Source of the DNA: Pyropia yezoensis
Taxonomy: Eukaryota > Rhodophyta > Bangiophyceae > Bangiales > Bangiaceae
Reading direction: 5' to 3'
DNA: 64,000 bases
NCBI GenBank assembly: GCA_009829735.1
Contig: CM020619.1
Coordinates: 31,083,751 to 31,147,750 of the forward strand
The notes under the pieces were generated by a model, which ran no database searches, had not been told where the DNA came from, and saw nothing but the letters and a program-made list of their open reading frames with translations. This document shows, piece by piece, positions 23,131-49,939 of this stretch. A program made the translations under genes and the position numbers. The first letter of the stretch is position 1. Every line of letters begins with the position of its first letter.

Positions 23131-23150
23131 CCAGACTGGGCCCAGTCTGG
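23131..23150. repeat. Perfect 20-bp palindrome at the left element edge
   Basis: CCAGACTGGGCCCAGTCTGG reads identically on both strands. It sits 12 bases outside the left inverted repeat. A related imperfect palindrome (GGACCAGTCTGGCAGACTG) lies at the mirror position on the right, so both probably belong to the element ends. Confidence 0.8.
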
Positions 23151-23162
23151 GGTAAAGGAACC

Positions 23163-23273
23163 GTGACCATTCGCCGGCACGTAACCATGAAGTGCCCATA
23201 CGGCCTGGAACGGCGGCCAATCCAGGCCATAGAGGCCCTTCGGCACGCTAGATCGGCACGGAATCCGTGCCGA
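23163..23273 (+). repeat. Left terminal inverted repeat of the large island element
   Basis: It shares long uninterrupted stretches with the complement of 49686-49798, including GAAGTGCCCATACGGCCTGG, GGCGGCCAATCCAGGCCATA and GGCCCTTCGGCACGCTAG. I estimate about 90% identity with one small indel. Its inner end is a 21-bp palindrome (23253-23273) with TCGGCAC arms. Confidence 0.88.
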
Positions 23274-26200
23274 AGGCCCCCGTACGGCCTCTCCAGAGGG
23301 GGGGGGGGGATCCGACCTCGCCACGCGAGACCTGGTCGCGGGGCTTTTCTCACGCAGATTGACCGCGTTGTGTGGCGAGAGATGGATACGGGCGCTGTGT
23401 GCGAGCCAGTCTATTGGCCCATTCTCTATGTAAGGTGGCTTTTGCGACCACTAAGACTGCTCGGGTTATGCACGCCGTATTTTATACGAAGCCGCGTGCA
23501 TTTTGCACATGTGAGCAAGGCACCGCTTGGGGGGGCCCGGAGCTGCCATGTGGGTGGGGGGGCGTGGGGCGCTAATACGACGCCGCAGCCGGGTTGCCGC
23601 CGTCGGACGGGGTGGGAGGGCGTGGGGCGCCAGTACCGCGCTGCCGCCGGGCTGCCGCCGCCGGACGGCTTCCGCCACTGATCAACTGTCGCAACGGGCA
23701 GGGGGGGCGGCGCCCGCTGCGGGCACCGCTCGCCAAAGCGCCATCGGAATCAAATCAGTACTGTGAAAGAGGGGGGGGGCTGGCGACGCCGCCCTGCCCC
23801 AGACAGGAAAGACGCCGCCCGGCCCCATACAGGAGAGAGCGCTGGCTTAGGGCGCGAACAAGGAGCGGGTTGTAGTCTAAAGTGAGGTGCGGGGGCTATG
23901 TGCGTCCGGGTGAGCTTCGCGGGGGCTGCTTGCAGGCGCTGGGGTGGTCCCTGGGGGGTGCTGGCGTGAAAGAAGGGAAGTTCTGCGACAGCGACTTTCC
24001 GGGCCCGCGGGTGCGGCGGCAGGGACTGCGCCGGTGATGAGCTGGAAGCAGCAGCGTCGGGGTGGATGCCTCCTCTATCGCCTCTTCCCGGCGTCCTGCG
24101 GTACCTCCTGCACGCCACGAGCACTTGCGCCGCCTCCCAAAACGCACTCCCGCGCTATGATGGCTCTGACGGCCGGCACGACCGTCAACAGGTCCCCCTC
24201 GTCAGGCGGAGGGCCGGGGGGGGCACAGCCCCGGCGGGCGGGCTCCAACGCCTGGTCTCTGCTGAAAATACTCTCAAGAAGCCACGGCGGCAGCGCGCCG
24301 CGTTCCTCCCGGCGCCAGCAGCGCCTTCGAGGGGCGCCTGCGAGTACCGCGGGCGCAAGGAGTTGGCGCAGCTCGGCGGGCGGCGCGGGCAGCGACCCTT
24401 CTGCCGGTGACCGAGGCCGACCGCGACGAGAAAATCGTCGAGTGCGTGTTGTGCGGCGATTGCAGCAACAGGCGACAGAGGTCCGACGGGGTTGGTGGCG
24501 GGTAAGTGGGCGGGGCGGAGGAGGCCGCGGCAAAGGGTTGGGGGGGGGGTTGGTGGGCGCGGCGGGGGGGGTGCGCATGTGCGTGAGGCGGAGGGGGAGG
24601 CCGCGCCGGTTGGCGGGGGGGGACGCGGAGTCGGAGGAAGCAGCGACGCAGGGAGCATGTCGGGAATGGGAGAGGGGCGGAAGGCGTCGGGGAGAGGTCA
24701 TAGTGTCCACAGGCAGGGAAGCTCAGGATGCTCAGACCCCCCCCCCCCCTGAAATGCCGACAGGGCCCAGTGTTGTCGGCCTCGCCGTCGGGCGCGCGGT
24801 GCGATCACGTACCGCCTTAAACCAGGCCGTCGGCACAAACCTTGGCGTCGGCACGATGCTGCGTAAGGCACCCGAGGGAGTCCTTCTGGACAGACTCGCC
24901 GAGCCGATTCTTGCTCATGCAGTACCCATATCCCCGAACCCTGTGTGAAGTTTTAACGCTCATCCAGAGATCTTGTGCTCAGCATTTCCCTGAACTTTAT
25001 GGGCACTCGCGTTTTTGCGCAACAGCGTGATTCGCGTCGGCGCGATGTGATGTTGGTGTCATCCCTCATTTCGGCACGATAACACGCAACTCGCAAGCAA
25101 CCGGCAGACCTTGCCAACACTCGCACTGTTCCGCGGATGTCCCAAAAGGCACCTCACGCAGCGTGTCTCCACGGCGCGGGCGAAGTCGCAACACTCAAGA
25201 AACGAGCCTCGCAGGCGGTGCGACATACGTTGTTACGCCAGCGGGCTTTACCGCAGCGTCGCCGAATCTCGGAGTGTCGACCGGCGGCGCGCCGGCAACG
25301 GCGGCGCCTTTGCGTGGCACCGCCACCTCGGCAGCGGCTACCTCGGTGGTCTCCGCGGCTGTCGCAGTCGCCGCGGCCACCGCCGCCGCCGCGTCATGGA
25401 CTACGGACAGATCTTCTGGTGGTTGCGCCAAACATCGCTGCAGGGGTACTTCGTAGCAGGAAGCCCGCAGCGGCGGGCCACCGATGGGAGATAGAGGCGT
25501 GTCAGGCATGGCACAGCCGTCGCGGTGGCGATAGTGACCTCAACCATTGTCCTGGCCGGCGCCATATTCGCCATAGCCCTCGCCGCTGGCACAGGAGCGG
25601 CACCACGACTACAGCAGACGGCGCCCCGGAGGCCAGCTGAGCCTCACGGCGGCCCGGAGGCCAGCTGAGGCTCGGGTGACGCGGCGACGGGAAGATCCTT
25701 GTTGCAGTTATCAGAAGCGATGCGCGCCTACGCTACTGGGGCAGCCTTGTTGGCGGCAGCTGCATGCAGACCCGCTCACCGCGGCGGCGGCGACGGCAGC
25801 TTGAGCCGCGGTATCGACACGGCGGCCATCACCCGTTCGTGGAAGAAGGCGGCGTGGCAGTGCAGCAGGTTCCCATTGAGCAGGCCCCGGTTGACCGCGT
25901 AGCATCGCTTCGCGGAGGCAGCGGGTCACGCCGTGCTGTCTGGCCCGAGGCGATGCGCGCCCAAACCTGTGAGGTGGCCTCCTTTGCGGTGGTGGCAGCG
26001 GTAGCTGCGGTACATACGCACGGCAGCGGCGGCAACGGCCGCGGCATCCGCACGATTGGCACGCCCGCGGCCAAGACGGCGGTCACTATGGCCGCAATAT
26101 CCGGCGGAGGCGCCCGACCCAGCATTGCCGGGTGGTGCAAAAGTGTTCGTCCTTTCAACTTCACACAAGAGAGCCACGAGCGACGGCAGCTCATGCTCAC

Positions 26201-27359
26201 CACGCACCACTGCCGCTACACTTCCAACAGCAAGGCCGGTCCGTTCTTGGACCAGTCCGCAGTTCCTTATCAGCGATCTCATTTGCCTTCCGCCGGGTGG
26301 ACTGCAGCTGTTCATGCTCTCCAAGCTGTCTTCCCCCCATCTTACGCCGTGATCAGACAGAACGGTGGCAACGCTATTGGGGGCTAGCAGTTCCTGGGGA
26401 TGGTGTGGTGGCGACTGGCTCTCAACAGTTCTTCCCCCCCTCCATCCACCCTGTGACTTCTGGTGCCGATCTCCTGGGCTGCATCTCCACTGCCCACTCC
26501 TGTGCAAGACTTCACAGGGCGGCAGCAATCATCGCCATGATGGCGGCGGTCGTGGCCAGCGGCAATTTACCATTTTTTATTGTCTTCGTTGCAATGATTA
26601 CCTCGTTGTTTTGTATGTTTTGTATGAAGATGTCCATGCTGGCGATGGTCTGGTCGGCGCTTCGCATCAAACTGCGCCTTCCGAAGGTTATACTGGTCTT
26701 CTTTCTTCTTCATCCTCCTCACTGGAAATATCTCAGGTCCCTCCATTCTTCTTGAACAGACTCACTTCCGATGACCATCCCAGCCTGCGCTGAAGCGCAC
26801 AGTGCAACCTTACCTGCATCACTTTCGGTGGCATCCGAGAATGCTTCGGGAAGCGACTTGCCAGAGATGAGCTCCATGCCTGAGTGTTCAGGTGCGGGAG
26901 TTTGTCATGTGAGAGAGGACTTGGCGCTGGGTCTTTTGTGAGGCATCAGGCATCAGGGAGAGGTTCGGCACAAAACAGCTCGGCAGGAACCAGCCTCGCG
27001 GCACAACACAATATTTCGGAACAAAATGCGACTCTCGGGAAAGCGCCGAAAGCACGTCTTCGGCGTAATATGAAACCTCAACGCGAAGGCTTCCGTTGCG
27101 CGGTGCGTGGATTGCCGCGGTGTGGTAACGACCGTCTCCACTCATGCACTCCTGGTGCGCCCTTTGCGTTTGGCGCAGAGATCGTTTGGCGGGCGCCGTG
27201 ACGCCGGCTTTGTCCAGTCATCTCTTCATCTTCAGCTTGCCGCGTGGGCCACCTGCAAGCACGGGAGCGCCGTGCCTGACGACGGTCTTTTCCGCGGCTT
27301 GTGCGACGAAGCCCCTGTACTGTGCTGCGCGGGGCGCGCGTCGACCCCGCACATTTCGC
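23274..27359. other. Island DNA without a recognised gene, carrying several TCGGCAC motifs
   Basis: Overlapping medium ORFs on both strands show no family signature. Features I can support are a G-run at 23298-23308, TCGGCAC at 24830, 24848, 25071 and 26965, and a short Cys-containing coding-like segment (ECVLCGDCSNRR) near 24437-24472 that could be an exon of an unrecognised gene. The last 200 bases before 27360 serve as the 5' leader of the Ulp1 gene. Confidence 0.4.
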
Positions 27360-30300
27360 ATGGCTGATGAACCGCGGAGAGGGCGGCCTTCTCGCTCTTC
27401 TTTCCTTCACGACGCGCCCGTTATCTCTGACGACCCGGACGACATCTTCGTTTCGGCAGCCGGGCGGTCGGACACTTTTGTGGACGCTGACGTGAATCAG
27501 TCATTTTCCGACGCGTCCGAGGACGGAGCTGATCATTTGGGTGGAGGAGGTGGGGAAGGCGGTGAGCGTGGTGATGGAGCAGAAGGAGCTGCTGGACCTG
27601 CGTGCGGTGATGCGGCACACGAAGCCGCTGGTCCTGCGCCCGACGAGGCGGCAGATGGTGCAATTGACCCAGTAGTCGAGGATGGTGCAAACGGAGCCGC
27701 TGTCGATGAAGCCGATGAACAGGGCGGGGCTGTGCCTGGAGGAGGATTAGGAGGAGACTCCCAAGACCACGCCAACGCCGGCGGTGTGGACGGAGCTGGG
27801 GTCGGCGTCGTTGGGGCGCCTGAAACAGACGGCCAGGAAGGAGAGGACGGTGGAGACGACGGCCCGGGCGGGGGATCCGATGCGGGCGACGATGACGGGA
27901 CACTTGGAGCAGAGAGTGGCGAAGACGACGTTGGAGGCCTAGGAGGTCAAGGAGTAGCTGGTGGAGAAGATCCAGGTGGCGCGGGCGGGTCTGACGATGG
28001 GAACGCAGTCGGCGACGGACCGGACGCGCCGCCGCGCCGGAGGCGCCTCCGTCGCATTCAGCGACCTCGGCGGTCGCCATTCACTCCGGAAGAGCTCAAG
28101 GAGTGGTTTGCCTTTGAGCTTCGCGTAATGTTGGAAGTTGACGCTCGCGTTGCTGGGAACGTGTTGGAAAGCAGAATCCAAGGGGCAGGTGTCAGCTGCG
28201 GTGGGGCCTTCGTCACTATTGAGGCAGGTGAGTACATTGTTACGTGGGGATCGCTCGTCAATGGGCACGTAATCGTGCTGTGCTCGTGCGGTGGGGTCCT
28301 TGGACGCGGAGCACCTGCGCCTGGGGTTGAGGTGGAGCATCCAGAGCGGCTTCTTGCCATGGGTAAGGAAAGCTCCTGTCGACACGCGGCGGCTCTCCGG
28401 CAGGCGTACTGTGACGTTTCTTCTGACACCGCCGTTGGCAGTCTGGAGGCCTTGCTTCAACTATACCCAAGCTTGAGCGGACGTGCGGTCCCCGACGACG
28501 ACGACGATTGGGCGGACGATGAGGACGACGACGACCCTCGTGCCTACAAGGTTGGGAACTACGGCCGCAAGTCAGGCCTTCCTGTCTACACTGTGCGGTA
28601 CGAGGGCGCATGGGCTCCAGTCGTGGCCAAGCCCAGAGGGAAGCGGCACAGGCTGGCATTTTGCTTCCAGCTGTCTTGCGCGGCTCACGCGTGGTCGTGC
28701 ATTCACGCCAAGACAATCAACAGGCTTCGACGCGAGGAAGAAGGCTCTGGAAGTTGGGAAGGCAGCCATGCTGCGTCCAGTCTTTGTGGTGGAAGCGACG
28801 AGCAGTCAAGCGAAGAGAGCGAAGGGGAGAATGCGGCCGCAGAGCAAGAGGCAGAAGTAGCCGCGGCAGACGCGGCGATGATGGCGAACCGAGCACTCAA
28901 GCCGCGCCGGAGAGCCCGGAACATGTTTCCCTGCCGCGGGGAAGTGGCTATGTGCACGACGTACCACACGGAGTGTGACCTCCAGCGTGAGGCTGGGATT
29001 TTTCCACGAACGCTGGAAGGCGTCTTTGTCGAGGAGATATGCTTCTCCTGTAACGCCGCGCGAGGTCAGGCGGCATTGTCGCAGCGGCAGGCGGAACTGT
29101 ACACAGTGCGCGGCAGAATGCTCATCACTGTGGCAGACTGGATCTGCGGAGACGGCCACCCTGTTGGCTACGATGGCGCGGAGGACGCCTTGTTTGTGTA
29201 CGAGCCCCGGACGGTGTACATCCGAGTGTTTCTGGACGCTATCCTGGAAACGTGCGTCATCGGGCGGACCACAATGTCTGCAGCGGCCGAGTTGTGGACC
29301 AGCACTCTGCGCAATTCTGCGGCGTACGAGGAAGGTGAGTTTGGTCCAGCGCGACAAGGTCTGTCAGGGGCGTGCGGCGAGTACTCTGACACGCTGATTG
29401 TCCCTGACTTGACTTTTACCTGCACGCGCTGCGGTGAAGATGAGGCGGGGGGCGGGTCGTTCTCTTGCGTGCTATGCGACGGGCAGGTGTTGTCGGTGCT
29501 AGCCGATCACATTGTGGCTATGCGTCGGCCAGGGCAAAATTGCCCGCGTGCCCCCATGCCCATTACCTTTGCTTGCGCCGTGCGGAACGCCGTAGTCCGG
29601 GCCGTCATCCGACGTCGAGTGCGGGCTGCAGTCAGTGGCGCTACGCCACTGTCGGCGCGAGAGCGGGAGCAGTACCGCACGTTTGCTGCCGCGACCGAGA
29701 ACGGGCCGCCACTGCCTCCCCCATTGCCCAACGGTGAGGAAGAGGGTGGTCGGACCCGAGAGGATTCGGAAACCGCTTTACTTTGGGCGGCCTCTCATCT
29801 CTTCTCCACGTTCTTCGTCATCCGCGATGCGGCGGAATTGGCACACGAGAGTGGAGAGGCAAACTCGGGCAGCGTGGCGAGTGACGCCGCCGAGGAAGCT
29901 GGAACAACATCGGGGGACGACGATGCCGCGGACTCTGGTGGAGACCCAAGCTCCGATGAGGAGCCAGTGGACGCTGACGATTTTGGCGTCATGCAGGAGT
30001 GGCGCTTGTTGGACACTGCGCACGCCGACCACGTCGAGGCGCCGGACGCCGACGTTGGAGCCCAAGCTGTTATTGCACCCCTTGTCGGCGTCCTCTGCGC
30101 TGAAGCAGGTACACCCCCGCTCTTCTTGAGCACACCAAGCCCGGCCGGCATGCCTCCGCCAAACCCAAATACTGGCGATGAAGAGGATCCCCTGCAGTTT
30201 TTGCTCTCTGCTCCACAAGAGGCGGAAAGGCAGGCGGCGAAGGCAGCTGGTCCGCTGACTGCCGATGAGTGGAGCGTTCCCCTCAGCATGATTGAGAGCG

Positions 30301-31118
30301 TCGCGGACGGTGCCGCGCCAAGCGCCTCCTGCGTTTTCGTGGACCCCGCGGAGTTTCACTCCGCACTGACGCTCAAGGCGGTCGAAGCGACGAGTGCGGT
30401 CGTCGCTGGGTCTTCTGTGCAAGCAAGACGCAGGAACCTTCGCCCGAAGTCGCGCGGTGCCTCAGCAGCTGGAGAGGACGACTTTATATTGAGAGTTGGT
30501 CGCGTCCCTCTGAAGCGTGGCGACTTCCGACGTATCCTGCCGGGGGAGTGGCTGACAGACCAGGTGATGAACGCATTCGTGGAGCTGCTACGTTATCATC
30601 GTTGTGGACCTGGTGCGGGGACTGGGGGTGCTGGCGCTCCAGGGCGGTTCTACTTTTTTTTTAACTCGTACTTCTACTCGTTGATGAACCAGCATGGGAG
30701 GTACCAGTACGCTGCGGTACGGCGGTGGACTTTGAACCGGAACGTGCTGGACTGCGAGACTGTGTTCATACCTGTCAACTAGGGTAACAACCACTGGGTG
30801 TTGCGCGTGGTGGAATGGACCAAAGGTGTAGTGGGAGTGTATGACTCTTTTGGGAGCAGCCTCGCCGTCGGAAACAACGTTGCCAAGTGGGTCGCCGACG
30901 AGGCGAGCACGAAGGGTCTCCCTGCCCAGACGATTGTAATGGACGAGCGGACCTGCATTCAGCAGCCGAACGGCGACGACTGCGGCGTCTTTGTGTGTAT
31001 GTGTATGGAGCTGCTTGCCAGGGACATGTCTGTCCTGGACTTATCGCCCTTGAGGGGGAAGTACTACCGGCGCCGCATCGCTGCTCAAATTCTCAGCAAG
31101 CAGCTGCTCGGCGGGTGA
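27360..31118 (+). CDS. SWIM/cysteine-cluster protein with C-terminal Ulp1 SUMO-protease domain, interrupted by TAG at 30780
   Basis: Ulp1 proteases cleave SUMO, and KDZ transposons often encode one with cysteine clusters. From Met 27360, an acidic Gly/Asp-rich region (1-220) leads to a basic patch. A SWIM-like CxC-n-CxH follows (C308, C310, C340, H342), then a second cluster (C435, C440, C447, H449). A block with FVEEICFSCNAARG and YDGAEDALFV resembles the N-terminal part of KDZ transposases. The Ulp1 domain opens with GEWLTDQVMNAF near 1093 and has H1145 (NNHW), D1162 (YDSFG), Q1202 and C1208 (DDCGVF). One in-frame TAG (codon 1141) stands three residues before the catalytic His region. Both sides continue in the same frame, so readthrough, a recent nonsense change or a base error are all possible. 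The 27144 start was rejected in favour of 27360, where acidic coding begins. Confidence 0.85.
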
Positions 31119-33175
31119 GAGTGAGTCCTATCCTTTTACTGCGCTTCTTCCGGTAGCGAATACAAGAGCGTGTTGTTGAGACGGACTGGCCGCACATACG
31201 AGTGCGTGCTGCTTATGGTACATGACGAGGACCACAGGCCCCCTGACGTGCCGCGCGCGGGCTCTCGGAGCCACAGCCGCCCGGGAGCCCGCAGGGGCCG
31301 CGGTGGTGCTGGCTGCCGCACCGGGGCAGTCCAAGGAGGCGGCCGCAGAGACAGCGCCGGCGGTGGCGGCGGCCGGCCGGCGGTGGCGGCAGCGAAAGCG
31401 GCGGCTGTGGCGGTGGCGGTTGCAGCGTCGGCAGAGGCGGCGGTTGTGGCGCGCGAGACTACAAGCGGCGTCGGCGACGTTCCGTGGCGTGCCCCTTGTG
31501 TGACGCGCGCACATGCCGCCGGAGATGGGCGGCGCACACGGGTGCAGCGACTGTACTTCATCGGTCGTCACCCCGCTGGAGACGCTGTAGACGCTGCGCA
31601 GGACGCGTGGGCGGCGGCGGCGGTGGTAGTGGTGTGCCTATCGTGTGGCGCGCTCACGGTGCGGGAAAAGAGGTACCTGACCGTCCCCTGGGGCCGGTGC
31701 AAGCAGGGGTACCGCATCCGCCGTTTGACCCTATCGCCTTCCGCCGCCGTTTGGGAGCCCGGCGGCGGCGCCGTCGCCGCAGGCGTCCGAGCCCTGCCGC
31801 GACTCACTAACATTGGACGCTTCCTGGTCAGAGGATGCCGGACTGACTGCAATTGGCGCCGCGCTGGCGGCCAGTTTTTGACTTTCGTGTGTTCTTGGTG
31901 TCCTGCCTCCCCTGTTCGGCGGCACCGGCGCTACCCAGACTGGTCGCCGTCCTCCCTCTACTTTTCTTGAAGGACATGCAAACCACGGCGTTGCGCGGTC
32001 CCACGACACTGCACCGGTTCGCATGCCCGCCCTTCTCCCGGCACTAGCGCTTCATGTCGCCGGGTGTGGGGGGGGGGGTCACGCGGCTTCCCATGTGGAG
32101 GAAGAGAGTGCTTCGGCGTGCTCGTAGCAGCTGAGAGGGCAATTACGGTTGTACTCGTTCACGTACACTTCATCGACATCCGCTCGTGTGTACCCCTTTT
32201 AAAAATCTCGTTCTCTTGGGCGTTCAGCGCAGAAGTGTCCTGGAAGCCGCGTGAGTGGGCGCCGGCTGTGCTTTGTGACTTGAGTGAGGTCGCGTCCTTG
32301 ACGTGGAACACTAGTGCTTGAATCGGCACAATCGTATTATGCCGAAGTGTCAGCAAATCGACTTCCGCTGTGGGGTAGAAAGTACATCGGCAGGAATCGT
32401 ATCGTGCCGAAATAGTCGAGGACGTAGATGCCAAACCGGCCGAGGGGTCCCGAAATAAGCTGTGGTTAGCCCGCGCCTGAGCCGTTGCCGCTGCCCACCA
32501 ATGTGGCCCGCGCAGAGGGGCATAAAAAGGCGGGCAGCCGCAGCGGCCGGGAGTTGGACAGGCATCCCGCCATAGGGGTCGCATCCGCCCTCCATACGTC
32601 GCAACCCTTGGCGGTAATCCGGCCGCGCGACCACGTAGAGATACGGGAGGGTACGGAAGGTGTGCAGCTGCCGCACCTGGGGTGGCCACTACTGCGGGCG
32701 GCAACCCATACAGCGGAGCCTCTGCGACTACCTCCCGTACTTCCCACGCCACCCCCGCCACTTCCGTAGGGGGGAGTTCGAGACCTGGGCACGCAGTGGT
32801 CCTCGCTCTTTCCCGACTCTAGCACTTCACTGGGGTGTCCAGGACGCCACGGACCTGCATGTGGCCACGCGCTTCGTTGCTCTCTGCAACCCTCGTTCGT
32901 CCATCGTGCGAGACCCTTGTCGCCCGGCCCCCCTCCGCTGGGTCGCGCGCTCCCCCTCCACTGGGACTCCCGCCTCCTTCGGGGTCGGTCACGTGCTCCC
33001 GCGCTACTTGGTCGCCCGCCGCCTCCAAAGCTGGGCCCCGTTCCTCCTCTTTCATCTCCCACCCCTTGGTGACGACCTCCTCCCTGTCGCTTGGACGCGC
33101 TCACTTCCTTCGTGCTCCGCCCCACTTGGGCGACATCCTTCCCGTACCCCTCCCCCTGGAAACACTCCCCGTGCA
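31119..33175. other. Island DNA, no recognised gene; TCGGCAC hairpin motifs at 32323-32345 and 32404-32410
   Basis: Ala/Arg-rich open frames near 31.2-31.9 kb look like composition effects. An inverted motif TCGGCAC...TGCCGA (32323-32345) and a further GTGCCGA (32404-32410) lie here. The final 200 bases before 33176 are C/T-rich, like the leader of the SET gene, and may be a promoter. Confidence 0.4.
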
Positions 33176-33676
33176 ATGTCGGTCACGCATGAGTGGTGGA
33201 GCGGGCGTTTCCTGCCGGGGGCATGCGTCCGCGCGAGGCGCCGCAACGGAGGCTACAAAGCGGGGTACATCCCTCGAGTGGAGACCCCGATGATGGCGAG
33301 CCGTAGGGGCACTCTGCGTGAGGGTTTTGTACTTGTCTGTGTTCGGGCGCGCGACCGGCGGTCAAGAGTGGTACGCGCGTTCAAGGCCAGTCGAGTGCGG
33401 TTCCAGGGAGTATCTCGGCTTGCACTGCGTGTGCAGGTGACTCTTAGCCGAGGGGTGTCATTGGAGGAGGAGTTCGACACGGACCAGATTGTTGGGGCTC
33501 CGATGGCCATGGACATGCCCGAGAGTGGAGGCACGGACGCGGACGCCAGCGGCGCTGGCGGTAACAGCGGACTGAACATGCCAGCCTGTGATGCTCTGGC
33601 AGCTGTCGAAGCCGCAGGCGATGCGCAGACGCGTCCTGATGACGATGAAGCTCCCGCTCATGGTTTTCAGCAGTAG
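33176..33676 (+). CDS. Hypothetical protein, basic N-half and acidic C-tail
   Basis: The 166-residue product starts MSVTHEWWSG after a C/T-rich leader. It is Arg-rich up to about residue 90 (including RARDRRSRVV) and then acidic and Ala/Gly-rich. I recognise no domain. A C/T-rich leader immediately before the ATG, as also seen at the SET gene, supports this start. The frame is open upstream to 32660, so an N-terminal extension cannot be excluded. It lies inside the inverted-repeat element. Confidence 0.4.
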   Translation: MSVTHEWWSGRFLPGACVRARRRNGGYKAGYIPRVETPMMASRRGTLREGFVLVCVRARDRRSRVVRAFKASRVRFQGVSRLALRVQVTLSRGVSLEEEFDTDQIVGAPMAMDMPESGGTDADASGAGGNSGLNMPACDALAAVEAAGDAQTRPDDDEAPAHGFQQ

Positions 33677-34636
33677 TTGAAGAGCTCTTGCGGCGCTGGT
33701 GGCCACAACGGCTTCGGCCGTGCTTGTGTGTCGCCGTGAGTTGGTCTGATAAGATTGGTCGTATGCAGGGCTTAGCTCATCTTCCTTCATGCCATGGCAT
33801 GTTGGTCTGTGGCGAGCGCGATATAATGTTTATACGTTTCTCGTTGCGAGCGCATCTCTTGTGCCTCTGGTTAGTACGCTATATGATTTTAGAAAGGCTG
33901 CGCAGTCTGACCTTCTTGTCTTCTGTCCATCAATCTTCTTCTGAGACCTTGCAGCGCTTGGACGTCGACTTTTATCTCAGCCGTCCGGCTTCAGCGCACA
34001 GGGTGGGGCGTACGAGCCACACTGTTGCTCTCATTGCGCTCGTCCGGCGTGTAAAGAGTTGAAGCACATGTGATTTCCGGCAGTATGTGTACGGAGCAGC
34101 TGGTTGTGACGGAGGTGCGTGCGACACTCCGGTATTCACCGGAGTGGGCCACTCCATCCTAGGATGGCAGCGCGAGAGCCTGCAAAGTTCTGTTCGAATC
34201 GGCACGAACATACAGTGCCGAAGTGTGAACAACCGGGATTGTCTATCCACGCGATCGCACCAATTCGGCGTGAAGCACTTCATGCCGACACGGCACAGAG
34301 GACAGATTCGGGGTGTGCCGGGTGGCACCCTCCCCAGCACTTCTCCCTGCGGCAGGCGCACTCGTCTGGGGAGACCAGTGACAGCCCAGTGGCTCCTGCA
34401 TCTTCCCCTCCGTCCTCCAGAGTTGTCCAACAGAAGCGGCACGCCATCCAGGTGGGTACGCACAGGGATGGCAAGGAACTGAGCGGCATGGCGGCGCGCC
34501 CGCAGTAGGCGTCCGCCGGCTCGCGGGCCACGCTGCGCTGCGGGGGAAGAACGCCTGTGGGAGCAGCTGCGCTGGAGGACTGCAAAGAGGCTGCATACGA
34601 AGAAGAAGTTGGGACAGTGGGTACCGATGGGCGCAG
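33677..34636. other. Island DNA with TCGGCAC hairpins; no recognised gene
   Basis: Inverted pairs TCGGCAC/GTGCCGA occur at 34199-34221, with a related pair at 34263-34288. Sequence around the first pair (AATCGGCAC and GCCGAAGTGT) repeats that at 32321-32350. No frame shows a family signature. Confidence 0.5.
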
Positions 34637-40237: not shown

Positions 40238-41686
40238 TCAAAGCTTCTTCTCGAGGCCAAGCGATTGACCTGCAGGGATGCCTTCCCGGCAACTGCAGCC
40301 CGTCACCTCGCAGCGGTCAACCATGGCCTTGTGGTAGTATGACTCTACCGTCTGGTGCTGGATCTCCAGCGGCACGAGCGCCTGGTTGGCCGCGCGGGCA
40401 ACAACGCTTTTAGCCATGGCTTCCCGCTTCTGTGACACGCGAATGTTGTTGCACGCCGCCATGTATCTTGAGCGCACGATAAAACGGTGCTGAGACATGT
40501 AGGTCAGGGATGACTTGGACTTCTTCTTGATGGAGTGTTGCCGCTCGGCGCTTGACGTGTCATGTCCCCGCGAAATCTCGGGATACTCGTCGGCCTCAAA
40601 AACAGGTGAGCACACGTGCCCGCATTGATGGAAGCGGTCGATGAAGAAAGAAACCTCCTCTTCAGTCAGGAGCCAGGGTACGCGGCGAAGCGCATTCCCC
40701 TGTGTTTGGCAGGCAGTGTCGCAGTACACCACTCGCGGCATCCGCACAAAGCGCTGAGCAAGCGCTGCGACCAGGTGGGCCGGACTCTCCGTCTCCCTTA
40801 GCAGCTCGAACCCGATGATGTAGCCACATCCACACATAAACGTTAACACCCCCGGTCCGCGAATGAGCGACTTGGGGTACCCGTGCCGGCAGTTATCAGC
40901 GTCCCAGGTGCACCGCTGTCGGGTAAGCAGCCTGTTGTTCGGGCGACGACGGCGGCGACGCTGTACGGGCCGAGGTGTCCGGCGGCGTCATCGTGCAGCT
41001 CTCCGTCGGTCTCGCACTGCTGTCGCATCCTCAGGGTAAGGTCTTACCAGCTTCCGGCCTGGCCACGCTTGACCCGTCCGCTCTTCTTCGGCTTGCTCCA
41101 GAATGCGAGCTTGGACTGCTGCGTGGCCAACAATATGGGTCACAGCTGGCTCCACGCCTTGGGCCGCTGCCCACTCTTGATACTGCTCCGCCGATGTGTC
41201 CTGCCACATGGCGCGATACTCCTTTGCGGCTTCTGACGCCTTGGTCTCCCACAGGTCCGTCGCAGCAGGGCCCCGGGAAGCAGCAAAGAGAATGAGCTCT
41301 CCAACGGCGTGCGCCAACAGCGGATCTTCGTCCATGCGCCTCTTGACCAGCAGAAGAAAGTGCCAAACGAAGACGACATTGCGGACATACTGCGCCAGGC
41401 CCAGCCACTCTGAACTTGGAACACCATTGGCCAACGCATGTCCTTGAAGCTGCACATCCACGAGGTCACAGCCGCCGAAGACGTTGAGGGCTGGCTCTGC
41501 CAGCATGGCCGAGAAGAACAGGCGCACTTTTCTCCATCGGTCTGCCGTGACGTCAGGGTTTTCGGAAGGAGGAAAGAAGTTCGACGGCAAGCACTGAAAG
41601 CGCGCGGGTCGAGCAGCGGGTGCTGCGGCTTGCTCTTCTGCAGCAGGCGTAGAGTGCCCCGATGAGCCGGGTCCCGACGAGCTCAT
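40238..41686 (-). CDS. KDZ-type (Zisupton-like) DNA transposase core, two exons
   Basis: KDZ transposases have an RNase H-like catalytic fold. From Met 41686 the protein has a Pro/Ala-rich start, a helical region, then the core: WDADNCRHGY, MCGCGYIIGFELL, VVYCDTAC (acidic residue), FIDRFHQCGHVC (His/Cys cluster), and a candidate catalytic Glu in SSAERQHS followed by FIVRSRYMAACNN. It ends with a Cys-rich tail (CEVTGCSC). The two open segments are in one frame but separated by a TGA at 40988. A GTAAGA donor (41047) and a CTTACCCGACAG acceptor (40916) would remove that stop and an Arg-rich stretch, in phase. The cysteine-cluster N-terminus usual for KDZ proteins is absent here. It resembles the separate gene at 27360. 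Encoded opposite to the Ulp1 gene. Confidence 0.72.
40916..41047 (-). other. Predicted 132-bp spliceosomal intron in the KDZ transposase gene
   Basis: The donor is CTG|GTAAGA and the acceptor is CTTACCCGACAG|CGG. Both exon ends are at codon boundaries, so splicing keeps the frame and removes the only stop. The intron translates as an Arg-rich stretch unlike the rest of the protein. Confidence 0.65.
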
Positions 41687-42254
41687 CCTGGTGACATGCA
41701 AAACTCGCCAAAGTCGTTGCAAGTGTGTTGTCGAAAGAGGAGGAAAATCACGACAAGCGCTAATCGGCTCGAGGTGCGCCGGGTGACAAGGGTGGACACT
41801 GCTTGCACAGGAGCGTGAGTGACGTGTTGCCGACACGACACCAAGGCGCGAGAGGCGGTGCCATACCAAGTGGCGTAGAGTGTTGATTTCGTGCCGAATT
41901 ATGCTGTTAACGTGTTTTCGGCACAACACTGGTCGATCTAAAGCGTTCTAAAGAAGCCGGTTCGGCACAACGTATTACGCCGAACTGGCACGAAGCAGAG
42001 CATCGGCACTACTTTCTCACCAGTGAGCCTTCACGTCACCGCTACTCGTAGAGAACAATCTCTGCCGTCCGACAGCGCCCGACCTGTTGCCTCCCGACCT
42101 GTTCCTGTTGCCTCGGAAGTGTTACTTGACCACCGAAGCGACGGTGGCCGTCTTGACGTGCACACGTTAACAAAAGGACGACCTTTAGAAAATCACTTAA
42201 GAAAGAGGACTAAGAACGTCTTAAAAAGAAAAGCAAACAAGGAGCCACTTCGCG
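41687..42254. promoter_or_regulatory. Divergent spacer with a dense cluster of TCGGCAC/GTGCCGA motifs
   Basis: The spacer upstream of the KDZ gene carries GTGCCGA at 41891, TCGGCAC at 41918, 41962 and 42003, and GCCGAA at 41979, giving two nested hairpins within 120 bases. A cluster directly upstream of the transposase would suit a transposase- or regulator-binding site. No gene is seen between the KDZ start and the 3' end of the Ala-rich gene. Confidence 0.45.
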
Positions 42255-45200
42255 CTATTTCTTCGTACGGCGGGTCTTCATTGGAGAGGAAGGCTCTCCC
42301 TCAGAAGCACACTCGGCGTCCTTTTGCCGCTTACGGGTTCTCCCTGCGACGAATGTGCTGACATTACCGCCGACAGGTGCGGAGGCAGATGTCAAGCCCC
42401 GTCCAGTGCCCTTGGGCGGTGCAGTCTGCGTCTTTGTGGGCGCCGACCTCTTTGCAGGCCGAGGGGAGCGCGGGGATTGAGGTCGATCAGCAACGGAGGA
42501 CGCACTGCCAGTCTTCCCCGACCGGGTCTCCATGGCGCTGTCTGGAAGCTTCGCGTCAAAGTGCACGGAGCGAGCCCCGGATGTCGTATGCTTGCCCACG
42601 CCCGGCTGCTGCGACGTTCCACTGCGCAGGGTACGGGCAGTCTCAGGGGCCGCAAGAGCACCGGGAAGCCGTTGTCCTTCAGTGCGTTGACGATCGCCGC
42701 CGTCTGTGTCGCCTCTGGCAACGGAAGCATCACTGCCCGCCGTTCTCTCAGCGTCCTTCAAGCCAGCAGAAGATACGGTCGGCACATCCGAGTCAGTGCC
42801 ACATGTCGTCTCGACGACAGCGTGCCTCGCTGGGGCGGCAACTGCAACCAAAACCGAGTCCTCCAATGTTGTCGAAGACGCTGCAGTGCGCCCTCTGCGC
42901 AAAGTGGGCGGTGACATTGGCACGGCCTTGACGCCTGCTTGCGCGCCCGCAGGCTCCTCCCTGGCCTTCACAGCCTTCTTGACAGTGATACCCGTATTCT
43001 TGCCCGCCAGTGTATGCGAGGGTGCTTCCGCCCCCCCAGAATTACCCCCCAGCGCGTCCTGAGCGCCTGCCTCCCTGCCAGAGTGTGCAGCCACGCCAGG
43101 TACCGTCTGCGCCTCAGCTGCGTCTGCTACCCGGGCCAGCGTACGTAGCCCACGAGCCGCTTCGAGAGCTACGGTACTCTCTCCTGCAGGCTCTGCCGAC
43201 TCTTCAACGGCCGATTTTGATGGTGGAGCGGTAGCTGCCTGAATTCCGGCCGTTGCCAACTGCCTTGTGTCGTTCTTCGAGATATTCGCCGTGAAGGAAA
43301 TGGTGGCCACCGGTGCAACTGATTGAGCCGGACGCGCTGCAGGGCCTCGTCGGGCTGCTGACGCCAACCGGGACGTGGGGGCCTGCGGGGGCGATGCAGC
43401 TCGCTGCGAAGACCGTGCAGCCGCCGTCCCGGTGACACCTGTTGTGGGAATCGTTTCGGCCGCCATATTCTCCACAGAGGCGCAGGTGGCTGCCGTCCGA
43501 GTCCTTGCCTGTGCCTCAGAGCCATCGGGAGCCTTAGCGGCCGCTATCTCCGATAGAGCGTTGACGACCGGCGCGGCCGCCGCTGGTGCCGCTGTCGCCA
43601 CCGCCGGCGCGGCAGTCTGGGCAAGAGGACTCGCGACTATCGCTTCGGTTCCAGTCCCCGTGGGGGGTGTGGGAGCAAGGAAGACAGCCGCATCTGAAGA
43701 CATGCTCAACGCTGGAGTTGCGGACCGAGGTGAGGAAGCCGCGGCCTTCTGCCCAGCGGCTGTCGCCATCTCGATTGACGCGGGAGGCTGGGCAGGCTCC
43801 TTCTCAGATGTCGCCACCGCTGCCTTGAATCCTTCCACCGAGGAGGCTGCAGCTGCCAGTCCAGCGGCCTCGGCGGAAGAAGCCGCTCCTGAAGGCGGCT
43901 TGCCCGCAGTCGATGGAGCCTTGGGCCCCTGAGCAGCGGCTGCGTGTGAGGCCGAAGCGGGCGCCGTTGGCAACACCCCAGGCGATGGGCGGACGACGGG
44001 TTGCGGAGGATGCCATGCTGGTCGCCCAGGCGGCTTTCGCAGCGGCGGTATGCGCTTTCGTCCTGTTGCAGTACTCTTTCCAATGGTCGGCCGGGCACCA
44101 CCAGGCTGTTCAGCTGCTTGAGATGAAGTTGTTGCACGAGGGGGCGCCTTCGAAGGGCCCCCCGCGGCAAATTCCGCCCTCGCGAGCCGGGAGGATTTAG
44201 CCTGCTGCTTGCCCTTCTTGACCGTCTTCGTCGGAGAGAGCACTTTGAACTCAAGTTGAAGCACACCCGCCGCTGCTCGTTTTGCAGCTGCAACAGCCGT
44301 GGCAGACTGCCGCGCGTCTTCTTCCGCCGAGGTATTTGCCCCAGCCGCAGCATCACCGTCACTCGACGGTGCAGAGCGCGAGGATGAGCCGACTTGTGCC
44401 CCTGCCCCGGATGACTGGGGAGAGCCCTTTCCACGGGGTCCTTTCGCAGCCTTGACTGAGCGCACCGCAACTGCCTTCTCTCTCTTCTCTCGTTCTTGCT
44501 TGCGGCGCTTGGCCGCAGCAGCTGCCAAAGCAGTGCGTGCTGTCGAAGATGCGAATTTCGACGCCTTTTTCGTCGTTGCGCTCGTTGAGTAGCCGGTCGT
44601 CGGGACAACCGCCGCGGCCACCGAGCCACGCGTGGACGGATTCTCCTTCATGGCCACTGAGTCACCCGCCGAGTCACGAGCCATCTCACCCGCCGCCTCT
44701 CCCGCCACGTCCTCCGCCGACTCCATTGCCGCCTCGTCCGTCGGCTCGACCGCCAGCAATTCCGCCGGCCCTTCCGGCCGCACGCCAGAGCGCTCACCAA
44801 GCGGCGTGTCCTCCGTCGCCACCGCCGCCGCAGCCGCCTCCGCGCCCGCAGCCGACGCACCCGCCGCGCCCGCCGCCGCCCCCGCAGCCGATGCGCCTGC
44901 CGCGCCCGCCGTCGCGCCCGAGGTCGACGCGCCCGCCGTGCCGCCCGCCAATGTGCCAGCAATTGCGCCTTCATCGCGTGCTTTCTCGCCATAGCCAGAT
45001 AAAGCAGCCACGAGAGGCACTCGCGAGGACCCGGACTTGAGCAGCAAGGCACGATCCAGACCATCAACAAAAATGCTCACGGCATCTAGCGCACGCGGCT
45101 CCTTGGTCATTTGCAGAAGAAGGTCGCCAACCCGCTCCGCGACCGATGTTGCACGCGCTCGTGATGCGTGGAAAGTGGGAACCACCACAGACTGCTCACC

Positions 45201-46430
45201 TGTCAATGGGCGATGCTTGCCGTCTGCGAGAGCAGCAAGCTCATTCGGGACGACCACTTGAAGTGGCCATACATTGCGGGAGTCCGGACGCCGAGGCCAC
45301 CACGGTAGCGATAGGCGCGCTCGCCTTGTCGACAGGTCTTGAGCGATCTCTTTCGACGCCACAGTTAACGCAGCCCGCAAGTGCGTAAGGGGACACTTTG
45401 ACTTCTCGAACAGCGCTTGCGCGACTGCTGATGCTTCTGGCGAGGGAGAGACAGCTTCAGGTGGGTGCTCGCTAACAGGACAGACGGGCACAATCCGCGT
45501 GCCTACCTTGACAGCCTGGCGCCGACGAGCCTTACTGCCAACCGAAGCACGACTTAAATACGGCGCGGGCACCGACGGCGATGAGGAAGATGAGGAGCTG
45601 CCTGCAGCCGCCGCGGCAGCAGCGGCAGCAGCAGCAGCAGCAGCAGCAGCAGCTTCACCAGCACTGGCAGGCGCTGATGCAGCCCCCTTATCTCCGTCCT
45701 TGATTGACGAAGCTCCCTTCTTAGCCGACAAAAAGGCCGCCGATGTCGCGTTTGCCGCCGCCGGTGCACCCGTGGCCGTAGAGGCCGCCTTCGCACCAGC
45801 GATTGCTGCCGCTGCAGCTGCGTCGGCAGGTTGTACGTCTGTTGCTCCCGCACCGCCCTTCGTCGCCGCCTTCGCAGCGGCTGCGACAGCTTCTGCTGCA
45901 TCGTCCGTGGGAGGGTGAGCCGCTGCCGCCTCATCGTCAGCGGCGAGCGCCGCCGCCGCAGGCCCCAATGGCTTTTCAGCACCCGCTGCCTTGTCACCTG
46001 CCGACGGCCCCCCCCCCCGGTGAGAGGCCTTGTCACCAGGGCGTCCAACTCCGGCAGAACTTCGAGGCGGTCGGTCTCTCCCTTTTCCCACATTCGCACG
46101 GGAGAGCAAGGCGTGCGAAGTCCCCACCATGCTCGGGCCGCTCTCGACGAACCGATACACCATGCTGAGCACGCGGCGGGCAGGGCTCTGGAGAACGCCG
46201 GCATCTTCCCACACAGGGAGCTAAAACACCTTGCCGGCCTTGTCGTACCCCGAGAGATGCACATGCCACGTGAGCGACTTGCTCGAATTGGCGAGCACCT
46301 CTAGGTTCTCCATCAGCTGTTCCAGCTCCGGCGACGGCAAGTCGGATGCGCGTTCCTCCCCGACGGACGACAGGAGGGAGCGCCGCACGCTCTGCGCGGA
46401 CGCACGCGCCGATGGACGCACCATCGTCAA
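42255..46430 (-). CDS. Very long Ala/Ser/Thr/Pro-rich basic protein, one in-frame TAG near the N-terminus
   Basis: The frame from 46214 runs about 1,319 codons. A 69-codon segment (46430-46221) precedes it in the same frame, parted only by TAG at 46221-46223. The N-terminal part has ordered-looking sequence (WHVHLSGYDKAGKVF, RRVLSMVYRFVESGPS). The middle has a short conserved-looking region (CPLTHLRAALTVASKEIAQD, VSIFVDGLDRALLL). The remainder is low-complexity, and the C-terminus carries nuclear-localisation-like clusters (GRTRKRQKD, MKTRRTKK). A GCA triplet run (about 45617-45652) encodes poly-Ala. No enzyme domain is visible. A nuclear, chromatin- or DNA-associated role is inferred only from the basic, disordered composition. 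If the TAG is real, translation may start at Met 46166. Confidence 0.6.
45617..45652. repeat. GCA trinucleotide run (poly-Ala in the minus-strand gene)
   Basis: An imperfect GCA/GCG triplet tract of about a dozen units lies inside the Ala-rich gene. Such tracts change length easily by slippage in steps of three and keep the frame. Confidence 0.85.
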
Positions 46431-47315
46431 GATTGCGAACGCGTTCGAAGTCGGGAGGGGGAGGGCGCCGAGGGTTGACGCACCGGCACAAAACGTGGTT
46501 CGGGTCGCGCACGGCAGAGATGCGCCTGCCTTGCCGAAGAGGTCCGCTGCTCAGGGGCACTAGGGGCAAGAAACAAGCCGAAGCACGTCGATTGTCGGCC
46601 GGCAAGCGGCCGACGCCTCAGCCTGCCACAGCACGCAGGCAGGAGGGGGGGAGCCCAGCGTTCACGCACCGGCACAAAAAAATCGGTCCGGGTTTCGCCC
46701 GGTCTGGGGCCCTCGGCGCAAGATGCGCGCCGAAGCACGTCGATGAACGGCCGGCATACGGCCCACGCGCCAGCCTGCCACCGCGCGCAGGCAAGCTGCA
46801 GGGAAGCCACCAGCCGAGGCATCTGGTCGAAATTGTGTGCCGACACGTGTTTCGTGCCGACACATACGTTTCCGTTTCGTGCCGACGCAGCCAAACCACT
46901 ACTCACGACGTTGAATTCGATACCTTTTGAATGAGCCACATACGCGGGTTCCTCTGGGAACTAGTCGTGCCGAATGGCGCGTCCAGCGAAGGCTCGTGCG
47001 CGCTGCCGTCCCCTGAGCACCTCGCCCACGGCATCCTCGCCCGCTGCCACCCTGAGGCAACGGCACCTGCTCACTTTGAAATGGTCCCTGCCCCACATTC
47101 TCGTACAAGCGGATTTTATGGCGGTTGCCTCTAGGTCGGCACGGTACCAAATACAAGGCAGGCGGCAAAATGCCGACAGCATGCACAGCCTACATAGCGG
47201 TGTTGCCGGGGCGGCACAAGTATACAGGCCCCTGCTTGAGACAAGGCGAAAAGCACTGGAGATGTGCGCTGAAGTAAAGCAAAAGCGCAACGATGGCGCC
47301 TCGACGGAGGCACAT
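46431..47315. repeat. Non-coding tandem duplication and GTGCCGA cluster
   Basis: Two imperfect units share ACGCACCGGCACAAA (46478 and 46664), GCCGAAGCACGTCGAT (46578 and 46729) and CAGCCTGCCAC (46619 and 46771), giving a period of about 150-186 bases. GTGCCGA follows at 46837, 46854, 46879 and 46967, and TCGGCAC at 47136. I see no gene. The unit's repeated structure could be transposon subterminal DNA or a non-coding RNA gene. Confidence 0.6.
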
Positions 47316-48215
47316 TTACTGGCTACAGGAAAAACGCTCGTTGTCGTTGAGGTACTCCTCCACGATCCTTGTGACATGCACAGGGCATGTCGCATGGTTC
47401 GACAGCCACAATTCAATCTCCTCCCTGTGAAAAGCGCACCAACATGGGAGGCGGAGCAGCTCCTTCGCCCCACCCAAAGAGTCAAAGCATATAGCACAAC
47501 GAGCCACTCCATCTGCCAAGTCCCGCGTGCTCAAGAAAAAACGATGCAGCTGACGCATCACGCTCGGAGGCACCCCGTCACGGTTGGCGTCCAGACCACC
47601 AGCAGACGCGGGGGCCGCCCACGCGGAGTCTAGCGCCGTGTCCTCGTAAGTGTATTCAATACGCAGGCGAGTAGATGATGGTGGAGCAGGAGCGACGGGC
47701 CCGCCTGAGCCCGCCCGCCGAGACGACCGCCAGCTATCCATCGCTTCCAGGACGGCAGTGACAGACGGTAGGATGGGGCCCACATCTGAAGTGACAGAGG
47801 CAGCGACGAGATCCCTCGCCCTGGGCGGCACAACTGCGTCAACATACATGTACCGCGTGCGACGCTGGGTTGCCACTCCGCCCTCGTCGGACCCCGAAGG
47901 ATTGGCATTGGCTGGGTCCCCCATGTCACTAGGCGTCCCCACCGTGTCCGCCAAGCCGGCGGCAGGCGTCTTGGCGGTTGTCCGCAGCACAGCCCGCCGT
48001 GTGGTCGATGACGCACGTCCCGAGGCCCGGGTGGCACGCGACGACACAGGGGCCCCCCCCGCAGCGACTGCCGTGTCGTGGGCAGACGACCCGGCGGCCA
48101 TCTGGTCGCTCTCCCGACGGCGCAGCCGGTGAGAGCGTCGGGCGGGTCGGACGAGTCCGGACGTCCCTCGGACGCTGTCAGGCCGGCTACGTCTCGTCCG
48201 TCGGTGGGGAGGCAT
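47316..48215 (-). CDS. RING-like zinc-finger protein (degenerate RING-H2, possible E3 ubiquitin ligase)
   Basis: The 299-residue protein has a basic, disordered N-terminal half and a C-terminal finger: CAICFDSLGG, then LPCWCAFHREEIELWL and HATCPVH. This matches RING-H2 spacing, including the Pro-Cys near the seventh ligand and the hydrophobic/Trp position that contacts E2 enzymes. The fourth ligand is Cys rather than His, the sixth is Glu instead of Cys, and the eighth is His instead of Cys. Zinc binding may thus be altered, and ligase activity is uncertain. ATG 48215 is chosen because the Arg-rich coding starts there. The frame is open upstream to 48308. It lies inside the inverted-repeat element and is transcribed toward the Ala-rich gene. 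Confidence 0.6.
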   Translation of the reverse strand: MPPHRRTRRSRPDSVRGTSGLVRPARRSHRLRRRESDQMAAGSSAHDTAVAAGGAPVSSRATRASGRASSTTRRAVLRTTAKTPAAGLADTVGTPSDMGDPANANPSGSDEGGVATQRRTRYMYVDAVVPPRARDLVAASVTSDVGPILPSVTAVLEAMDSWRSSRRAGSGGPVAPAPPSSTRLRIEYTYEDTALDSAWAAPASAGGLDANRDGVPPSVMRQLHRFFLSTRDLADGVARCAICFDSLGGAKELLRLPCWCAFHREEIELWLSNHATCPVHVTRIVEEYLNDNERFSCSQ

Positions 48216-48308
48216 TCTCAAGCGCCCGCGGGGTTCGTGAAGGGAGAAGATGAAGACAAGGTGAGAGGCATGGGGGAGTTGGAGGGGACAGCCGCGCGTG
48301 CGCCACAA

Positions 48309-49685
48309 CGGTGAGAGTGCAACGGTGAGGACGTGCCGCGAAGGTGAAGGTATCTGGTCGGCGGACCGCCCGTGTTCTCAGATAGCCTGCTGCACTGCAG
48401 AGGAAAAAGCGTGCGGGCTTCATGTGAACAGGTGTGTCAACAAATGAACCGGTCCTGAGTGACCGGTGGGTGGGGGTCTACTGCCTGGCTAGCTTGTTGA
48501 CTCACGAGCTCCAGGAAAACGTACGGGCGCAACACCACAACAGAGTGGGGCCGTGTCCGAGTCCCGCACGAGGCAGATCCGAGCGCAAATCGGCCGAGGT
48601 CCTTGCGAGCAAATCAGATGCTGCCCGCCACGGCCTGCTGGCCTTGGCAGCGGCGTGCCGTACATCGTCACGATGTAGTATCGCGCCGAAACAGCATGTT
48701 CAGCCCAGGTCGTCGGCAGTGTCGTCACTATGCGGTATCGCGCAACCAGGATTCTAACGAAATGTCGACCAAACAGACTACGCACATCTGTTCCAATCAA
48801 CAAACACGACAAATGCGAGTGAAACTGAATTTGAATTTCAGCGCACATTAACTTTGCTGTTCTCATATATTCTTTCTCCACTGTCCACCACGACCGATAA
48901 TGGTGGGTGGTGCTGGTGGACATGCTGCGTGCATGTGCTCACTTCGGCACCATTGTGCCCAACCCCAGTCGGCAGGATCGTGCAGAACTCGTGCTTCGTG
49001 CCGACAAGAGTCAGGGGTACCGCGGAGGATGGCCCTGCAGTGGCCACCCCCCAGCTCGCCGGAAGGACGTGCAGGCGATGCACATTTGGCCGACGCGCAC
49101 CCGTTCCAACCGTACTGAGACACCACCCCCTCTCCCTCTTGCACGTCCGGCCCCTGCCGACCGCTCCAGGTACCGCTGCAGCCACCCCCCCACTTGACGG
49201 TCGTCGAGCCTCACTCTCTGCTTGCCATTGCGGTCGCCATTGCATACACCGTGGCTCGCTTCTGGCCAGCTAAAACGACGTGCCCCTCCTTCTCGCCCAC
49301 ACCTCGCCCGCCCCGTCCGGCCGCCCCCTTCCGCAAAAAAAAACCGAGTCGCCCCAGCTCCCCCTGTCCGCACACAGATCAACCCCGATATTGCGTACCG
49401 CACGGAGAACATGCACATGATGCACGCACTGTAAAGCAAGCATTGAGCACGGAGGCGGTTCCACGGATTCGCACACCCGGCGAGCCACGTGCGCCACGTG
49501 CACGCAACGCCCCGCCACGTGCCCCACGTGCACGCCATGCCCCCGGTAATGCGGCAATAAGGACGCCACGTTCCCCACGTGGCTGGCGACGTGATCGACG
49601 CCGGGGCGGCCCGAAATCAGCAGTCCAGACTTAAGAAATCTCTCGCTTCCTATAGGTCGAGCCATGACTGCGTGTGCTGGAATTG
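48309..49685. other. Island DNA near the right end, no recognised gene
   Basis: Motif copies TCGGCAC at 48946 and GTGCCGA at 48998 are present. A run of GCCACGTGC-type repeats (about 49485-49545), containing the palindrome CACGTG, lies 150 bases inside the right inverted repeat. Open frames here are short and lack signatures. Confidence 0.45.
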
Positions 49686-49798
49686 TCGGCACGGACCTAT
49701 CGTGCCGATCTAGCGTGCCGAAGGGCCTCTATGGCCTGGATTGGCCGCCATTCCAGGCCGTATGGGCACTTCGTCGTTTCGTGCCGGCGAATGGCCAC
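49686..49798 (-). repeat. Right terminal inverted repeat of the large island element
   Basis: The complement of this segment matches 23163-23273 with about 90% identity by eye. It carries three TCGGCAC-type motifs (49686, 49702, 49715) at its inner end, mirroring the left repeat. Confidence 0.88.
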
Positions 49799-49841
49799 TT
49801 TTCCTGGACCAGTCTGGCAGACTGTCCGTGCGTTGCCTGCA

Positions 49842-49872: not shown

Positions 49873-49939
49873 GCGTCATGCGCCGAGGCGCTCTGCTGCG
49901 AACCTCCGACTCTGCAGGCCTGCACCGGCTCTGCCGCAT

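Follow-up and report, generated by a model that had tools for sequence, protein, structure and literature searches.

Introduction

KDZ transposons comprise the Kyakuja, Dileera and Zisupton groups. In PMC12730594, Kyakuja elements are described as having a 7-bp target-site duplication (TSD) and CA..TG ends without terminal inverted repeats (TIRs), and 8-bp TSDs are given for Zisupton and for one Dileera family. The same text cites transposons with captured chromatin genes, namely TET/JBP in fungal KDZ elements and SET in HarbingerS and MuDR elements of Phytophthora. For red algae, PMC6431247 describes EnSpm/CACTA elements of Chondrus crispus that measure 16–20 kb and contain 4–5 open reading frames (ORFs). 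Here we describe a KDZ-related DNA transposon of 26,660 bp, referred to as the nori element, at positions 23151–49810 of a 64,000-nucleotide stretch of the red alga Pyropia yezoensis (GenBank assembly GCA_009829735.1, contig CM020619.1, positions 31,083,751–31,147,750, forward strand; this whole stretch is called the window). From sequence comparison it is probably a giant transposon of the cut-and-paste type, whose KDZ transposase is split over two genes with the halves assembling in trans.

The nori element resembles KDZ transposons in a putative KDZ catalytic domain, linked to theirs through a chain of profile comparisons, and in a weakly matching CxC-like cysteine cluster, and is set apart from them by its size of 26.7 kb with SET and RING-like genes. 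While the KDZ relatives seen here outside the clade described below possess a one-chain transposase, the nori element has two genes on opposite strands. The 7-bp TSD resembles that described for Kyakuja, from which the element differs by its 110-bp TIRs and the absence of CA..TG ends, and in five of five copies it differs from the 8 bp of Zisupton and of the Dileera family. A chromatin-modifying passenger is likewise known from the transposons with captured chromatin genes cited there, whereas the nori element, a red algal transposon of KDZ type, combines SET, RING-like and Ulp1 domains. The Chondrus crispus elements are also enlarged, multi-gene and red algal, but belong to a different superfamily. 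Neither a split KDZ transposase nor this gene set was found among the open-access papers listed and the passages covered, which do not include the founding KDZ papers; the titles and abstracts yielded no split transposase of this kind, and no Zisupton paired with Ulp1 was found in open-access literature. To our knowledge, no DDE transposase has its catalytic triad divided between two genes. The element also extends the known range of five-gene, KDZ-type transposons to include a red alga.

Two genes on opposite strands carry the parts of a probable KDZ transposase

The putative catalytic residues, a first and a second aspartate (D1 and D2) and a glutamate, are by alignment all present in the element and are distributed over two proteins. 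These are encoded on opposite strands, about 10 kb apart:

27360..31118, plus strand: ORF-A, with SWIM-like and CxC4-like cysteine clusters, the D1 half of the KDZ transposase and a C-terminal Ulp1
29037..29309, plus strand: CxC4-like cysteine cluster, weak, below the Pfam cut-off (residues 560–650 of protein P0001)
29478..29480, plus strand: putative D1, motif CVLCDGQ, placed by alignment
30546..31070, plus strand: Ulp1 (Peptidase_C48) domain, found by Pfam on an open, 98% identical protein
40238..41686, minus strand: ORF-B of 482 codons, carrying the D2-E half of the KDZ transposase
40718..40720, minus strand: putative D2, motif VVYCDTACQ
40544..40546, minus strand: putative catalytic Glu, motif SSAERQHS

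The window copy of ORF-A is interrupted by a stop codon at 30780–30782, just 5′ of the presumed protease His codon, so that the presumed catalytic codons of Ulp1 (His 30792, Asp 30843 and Cys 30981) lie past the stop and the domain reaches only an E-value of 0.041 in Pfam up to this point, below the cut-off. Its full extent is apparent from P0001, an open protein of 1251 amino acids with 98% identity to ORF-A that ends in a complete Ulp1 domain (E 1.5e-26); among proteins with solved structures, this domain matches Ulp1 and SUMO (sentrin) proteases best. The initial annotation, made from the window sequence, had listed Ulp1 as a gene of its own; it instead forms the C-terminus of the D1-bearing protein. 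The CxC4 cluster was detected in all four ORF-A proteins under the cut-off (E 0.0097–0.07), and in 14 of 15 one-chain relatives at an E-value of 1 or less (best 8.6e-8).

The alignment column of D1 is occupied in 44 of 46 rows, each time by an aspartate, and conservation and alignment together suggest that the DGQ aspartate of ORF-A is the putative D1. Alternatively, D1 might be located inside ORF-B, in which case the split would separate a DNA-binding/Ulp1 protein from a complete catalytic protein, and this idea draws on the fact that D1 is assigned by conservation and context, not by structure. The RNase H fold has D1 on strand one and D2 on strand four. The structural model of ORF-B, of low confidence in the catalytic part, has its first strands of at least three residues just before D2 (residues 284–288 and 294–299) and helices earlier, and the DGQ motif occurs in all three protein groups. 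Both observations speak against a D1 in ORF-B, which we consider improbable. In a forced global alignment, ORF-A proteins also place an Asp (four of four) and a Glu or Asn (three and one) in the D2 and Glu columns; we take these as forced because no D2-E half is detected in ORF-A by local comparison and the protein ends in Ulp1.

ORF-B of the window contains one stop codon (40988–40990), and this codon is open in the four other copies of the element introduced below, of which the one termed E3 is open in 482 of 482 codons; ORF-B has its own Met and stop. Its tie to KDZ is drawn via profile comparison with one-chain relatives, among which the KDZ profile itself (PF18758) is matched by 4 of 15 at an E-value of 1 or less, the relatives in this genome exceeding the cut-off at three of nine places. 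The KDZ transposase named in the initial annotation is in this sense KDZ-related, although it appears to be encoded by two genes and not one, and a fifth long frame, rich in alanine (42255–46163), had been missed. Two ORF-B-like proteins (P0009 and P0011) are publicly annotated as hypothetical proteins of Pyropia yezoensis. Scans of viral contigs with the ORF-A and ORF-B profiles yielded no relative.

The break falls into the linker of one-chain relatives

In one-chain KDZ relatives, both in this genome and elsewhere, the order is cysteine cluster, D1, D2 and Glu. Five frames of the genome (L035, L037, L039, L041 and L042) display DGQ, YDVACK and AAEV in this order on a single chain; in L039, Pfam places Ulp1 after the Glu, and L041 looks alike by eye. 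Using the closest one-chain relative (L055, C3:19.44 Mb, a frame with a single stop ahead of the segment used and with a short duplication inside it) as query, we obtained 38 proteins, of which 35 comprised both halves and none Ulp1. One-chain proteins from this genome and from Porphyra umbilicalis (P0075, annotated at its source as a SWIM-type domain-containing protein) share the domain order of the nori halves at 27% and 36% identity. In profile comparison, residues 114–704 of the one-chain protein P0053 match residues 235–826 of ORF-A (E 7e-58, 27% identity) and residues 775–1198 match residues 27–475 of ORF-B (E 6e-101, 36% identity). The two matches do not overlap and ORF-A and ORF-B show no similarity to each other in such a comparison (E 0.21); the chain is hence broken between residues 704 and 775, in the linker.

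A break at this position would also suit trans-splicing, by which the transcripts of A and B would be joined into one mRNA and the protein would be unsplit after all. Against this, ORF-A continues unbroken into its own Ulp1 in the open frame of 1251 amino acids and ORF-B is equipped with a Met and a stop, which makes trans-splicing the least probable of the explanations considered and very unlikely in itself. The relatives of either half show the same division: all four ORF-A relatives combine the D1 half with Ulp1 and lack the D2-E half, and all 45 ORF-B relatives, within the length range covered by the search, contain the D2-E half and lack the D1 half.

The putative catalytic residues are retained in these proteins, the D2 motif in 42 and the Glu motif in 41 of the 45 ORF-B relatives, at about 50% identity, and D1 in four of four ORF-A relatives. 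This bears on the possibility that a one-chain KDZ transposase from elsewhere moves the element, and that ORF-A and ORF-B, after complementary losses, are regulators without joint catalysis. The genome does harbor many KDZ-related genes, several of them single-chain, and the copies fetched carry broken frames. Catalytic residues would, however, be needless in a regulator, and we regard a one-chain mover as rather unlikely and prefer the reading in which the two halves act together.

In trees calculated for each half, the split proteins form one clade (support 100/100 in both) among one-chain proteins, and the other KDZ frames of the genome stand apart across the midpoint root. The nearest one-chain sister of the split clade differs between the trees (support 82–86 and 82–90). 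Since one-chain proteins are found on both sides of the split clade, these trees are most simply read as a single origin of the split in a one-chain ancestor, followed by its retention through about 50% protein divergence.

In close relatives across the genome the halves mostly lie on opposite strands

We searched the genome (107.48 Mb, 11 contigs) for both halves. The census returned 35 D1 matches, 21 with at least 46% identity and 14 with at most 35%, whose arrangement depends on the family. Among the former, 12 of 21 have a D2-E match within 20 kb, which in 11 of these 12 lies downstream on the opposite strand, mostly at about 10 kb and farther away where insertions intervene; two more have a D2-E match, the same one for both, on the other strand at 21 kb and 49 kb. 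Of the D1 matches of at most 35% identity, 13 of 14 have a downstream D2-E match on the same strand, in 12 cases no more than 1.1 kb away and in one case at 20 kb, and the remaining one has none. Close family copies with both halves within 20 kb have them on opposite strands in nine of nine cases, which prevents a single transcript from carrying both in sense orientation at these loci. A diverged split element at C1:29.51–29.54 Mb (46–49% identity) shows matches to ORF-A, ORF-B and the Ala-rich frame in the same order; among the matches listed, neither SET nor RING was found in it.

Several observations weigh against a two-gene KDZ transposase. The KDZ profile (PF18758) matches neither the ORF-B frame nor any other frame of the window, and among the ORF-B relatives P0007, P0008 and P0033 only P0033 matches it, with 25.7 bits against a cut-off of 26.6. 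In AlphaFold models built from 15 rows for a one-chain relative and from 22 rows for ORF-B, the predicted local distance difference test score (pLDDT) is below 50 in most of the catalytic region, and the models do not place D1. The ORF-A relatives found were four only, and the ORF-B search returned only proteins of about 265–843 amino acids, so that the 45 of 45 given above is partly set by length. With respect to strand, the pair at C1:28.16 Mb, which belongs to the group of at least 46% identity, lies on the same strand at a distance of 4.5 kb, a pair at C3:7.85/7.88 Mb does so over 34 kb in a rearranged setting, and 6 of the 21 D1 matches of at least 46% have no D2-E match within 60 kb. Finally, every one of the five copies with both ends is damaged in at least one gene. 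Taking these points into account, we still favor, though with somewhat less assurance than the split itself, the view that the DDE core is built from two proteins, A contributing D1 and the SUMO protease and B contributing D2 and Glu, and that the two have been kept as an obligate pair throughout a lineage of marine algae.

According to this model, protein A (cysteine clusters, D1 and Ulp1) and protein B (a helical domain, D2 and Glu) would be made from convergent genes and assemble in trans, with the D1-bearing strand of A completing the RNase H-like fold of B. Of the readings compatible with the sequence data, assembly in trans is the simplest; it is inferred, as are catalysis by the A-B pair and excision of the element. 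The complex would act on the 110-bp inverted repeats and leave 7-bp duplications. As a guess from the protein families, Ulp1 may desumoylate the complex or host silencing factors, and the products of the SET and RING-like genes may act on chromatin or on the turnover of proteins; the remodeling of host chromatin or repair at insertion suggested in the initial annotation is likewise conjectural. If A and B are an obligate pair, transposition would need two promoters on opposite strands to fire together. If the halves assemble, the element would represent a natural split recombinase that makes transposition depend on two signals, and could point the way to a genome tool made of two parts.

The element has exact ends and further copies in the genome

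The limits of the element are set exactly by the target duplications:

23151..49810, unstranded: whole element, defined by TIRs, TSDs, four other two-ended copies and empty sites of copy E5
23144..23150, unstranded: left TSD, 7 bp, AGTCTGG
49811..49817, unstranded: right TSD, 7 bp, AGTCTGG
23151..23260, plus strand: left TIR
49701..49810, minus strand: right TIR

The arms of the TIR measure 110 nucleotides, are 92% complementary and are the longest among the inverted-repeat pairs listed (25 of 221 in the window); the ends of the element read S-GTAAAGG...CCTGGACC. The initial annotation had recognized two inverted repeats of about 112 bp that enclose the gene block at 23131–49827, and had interpreted the whole as a single giant transposon with KDZ transposase, Ulp1, SET and RING-like genes. 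Apart from the small correction in length and limits, this is borne out by the TIRs, the TSDs and the copies with both ends. Its further statement, that the block differs in base composition, applies to the left side, where 9 kb have a G+C content of 75.7% as compared with 63% in the element, but not immediately to the right, where 49811–53264 has 58%. The heptamer CGGCACG occurs eight times in the two 150-bp ends taken together, against 0.12 expected, the ends being copies of each other, and is a candidate binding site. It is also seen at 41890, just upstream of ORF-B, and at 46853–46966, between the Ala-rich and RING-like genes. An Rfam search gave no match.

In the genome, the left end is matched 29 times and the right end 33 times, in two lists that overlap because the element ends resemble each other. 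Besides the window copy (E1), four copies possess both termini, namely E2 (C1:11.58 Mb), E3 (C1:41.49 Mb), E4 (C3:0.95 Mb) and E5 (C1:12.69 Mb). These align to E1 end to end in pieces of 94–99% identity, and the four copies are 96–98% alike overall; exceptions are missing pieces of up to about 1 kb, a block of Ns in E1 and five insertions of 7.5–12.4 kb, three of which have 5-bp flanking repeats and TG..CA ends and are presumably LTR (long terminal repeat) retrotransposon-like. A sixth copy at C2:6.03–6.08 Mb lacks the outermost 95 bp of the right end. The repeat is hence not a common short element unconnected to the genes, a finding that the initial annotation had named as one that would refute its interpretation.

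The TSDs of the five copies (AGTCTGG, GTAAAGC, CCGGTTC, CGACGGG and TCGTCGC) are all 7 bp long and flush with the ends. Empty sites were sought for E1, E3 and E5. E5 is inserted in a repeat, and its flanks, joined with one duplication, match unbroken elsewhere in the genome: of 41 rows, 31 span the junction, starting no later than base 3 and ending at base 243 or beyond, with up to 98% identity. For E1 and E3, the genome search found no second copy of the site, only their own flanks and, for E3, one partial match of 84% to the right flank. Further copies and empty sites with the same boundaries, on whose absence the single-transposon interpretation would have foundered, are thus both present.

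Counting substitutions only, the copies differ from E1 by 2.2–3.6%; E1, E2, E3 and E5 differ mutually by 2.2–2.4% and each from E4 by 3.5–3.6%, a pattern consistent with one burst. Base changes among the five copies are spread evenly over codon positions in most frames, which is expected after insertion and therefore silent on selection before insertion. The window copy is dead, with stops in both transposase halves. It also contains a feature absent from the four other copies:

35434..35885, unstranded: block of 452 Ns between 9-bp direct repeats AGTGCCTCA

This block is an insertion with a 9-bp duplication specific to the window copy. In E5, about 4 kb of the element are present on both sides of a 500-N gap (C1:12.70–12.71 Mb), which is likely an assembly error.

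SET, RING-like and Ala-rich genes accompany the transposase

The element harbors five long genes or frames, which besides ORF-A and ORF-B are:

36993..37697, plus strand: SET-domain gene, from the first Met (frame open from 36891)
42255..46163, minus strand: Ala-rich frame with a basic C-terminus, from the first Met
47316..48215, minus strand: RING-like gene, from the first Met

Order and strands of ORF-A, SET, ORF-B, Ala-rich and RING-like genes are the same in E1, E2, E4, E5 and the copy at C2:6.03 Mb, and E3 departs from this pattern only in that its Ala-rich gene has suffered a deletion. All five genes are also matched, some of them partially, at C1:12.13 Mb and at C2:30.76 Mb. SET and RING exceed their Pfam cut-offs (E 9.6e-7 and 8.9e-7, respectively). 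In the SET gene, NYG is kept in four of five copies together with a variant of the NH motif, and the RING-like finger has a Glu at the classical sixth metal ligand in all five copies and a stop within the finger in two. The Ala-rich frame has no Pfam match, and a 39% identical match is found at the corresponding place of a diverged split element.

We also considered whether SET and RING belong to the KDZ machine, which is unsupported: none of 66 diverged SET and none of 29 diverged RING relatives lies within 15 kb of the KDZ matches used, a weak argument since chance gives only about 1.2 and 0.6. A diverged split element at C3:4.96–4.98 Mb does carry SET, 18.8 kb from its ORF-B. Diverged SET and RING relatives are found within 15 kb of each other at five loci, compared with 0.54 by chance (maximum of four in 500 shuffles). 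As these pairs occur away from the KDZ matches used, SET and RING apparently move together in further elements as well, and the two genes resemble passengers that are not confined to KDZ elements. The pairs (C2:27.71, C1:42.18, C2:7.52, C3:14.69 and C3:4.37 Mb) are 5.6–12.2 kb apart, three of the five with near-equal spacing, perhaps marking another giant element.

Surroundings of the element in the window

To the right of the element, the block of 58% G+C contains an open frame of 821 amino acids (50799–53264) with a P-loop-like motif PGSGKSHHLRLLG and no Pfam match. To the left lie two reverse transcriptase genes, gypsy-like (2848–6936) and copia-like (11355–13187), and between these and the element a DEAD helicase gene (18959–21133) is situated in a stretch of high G+C content.

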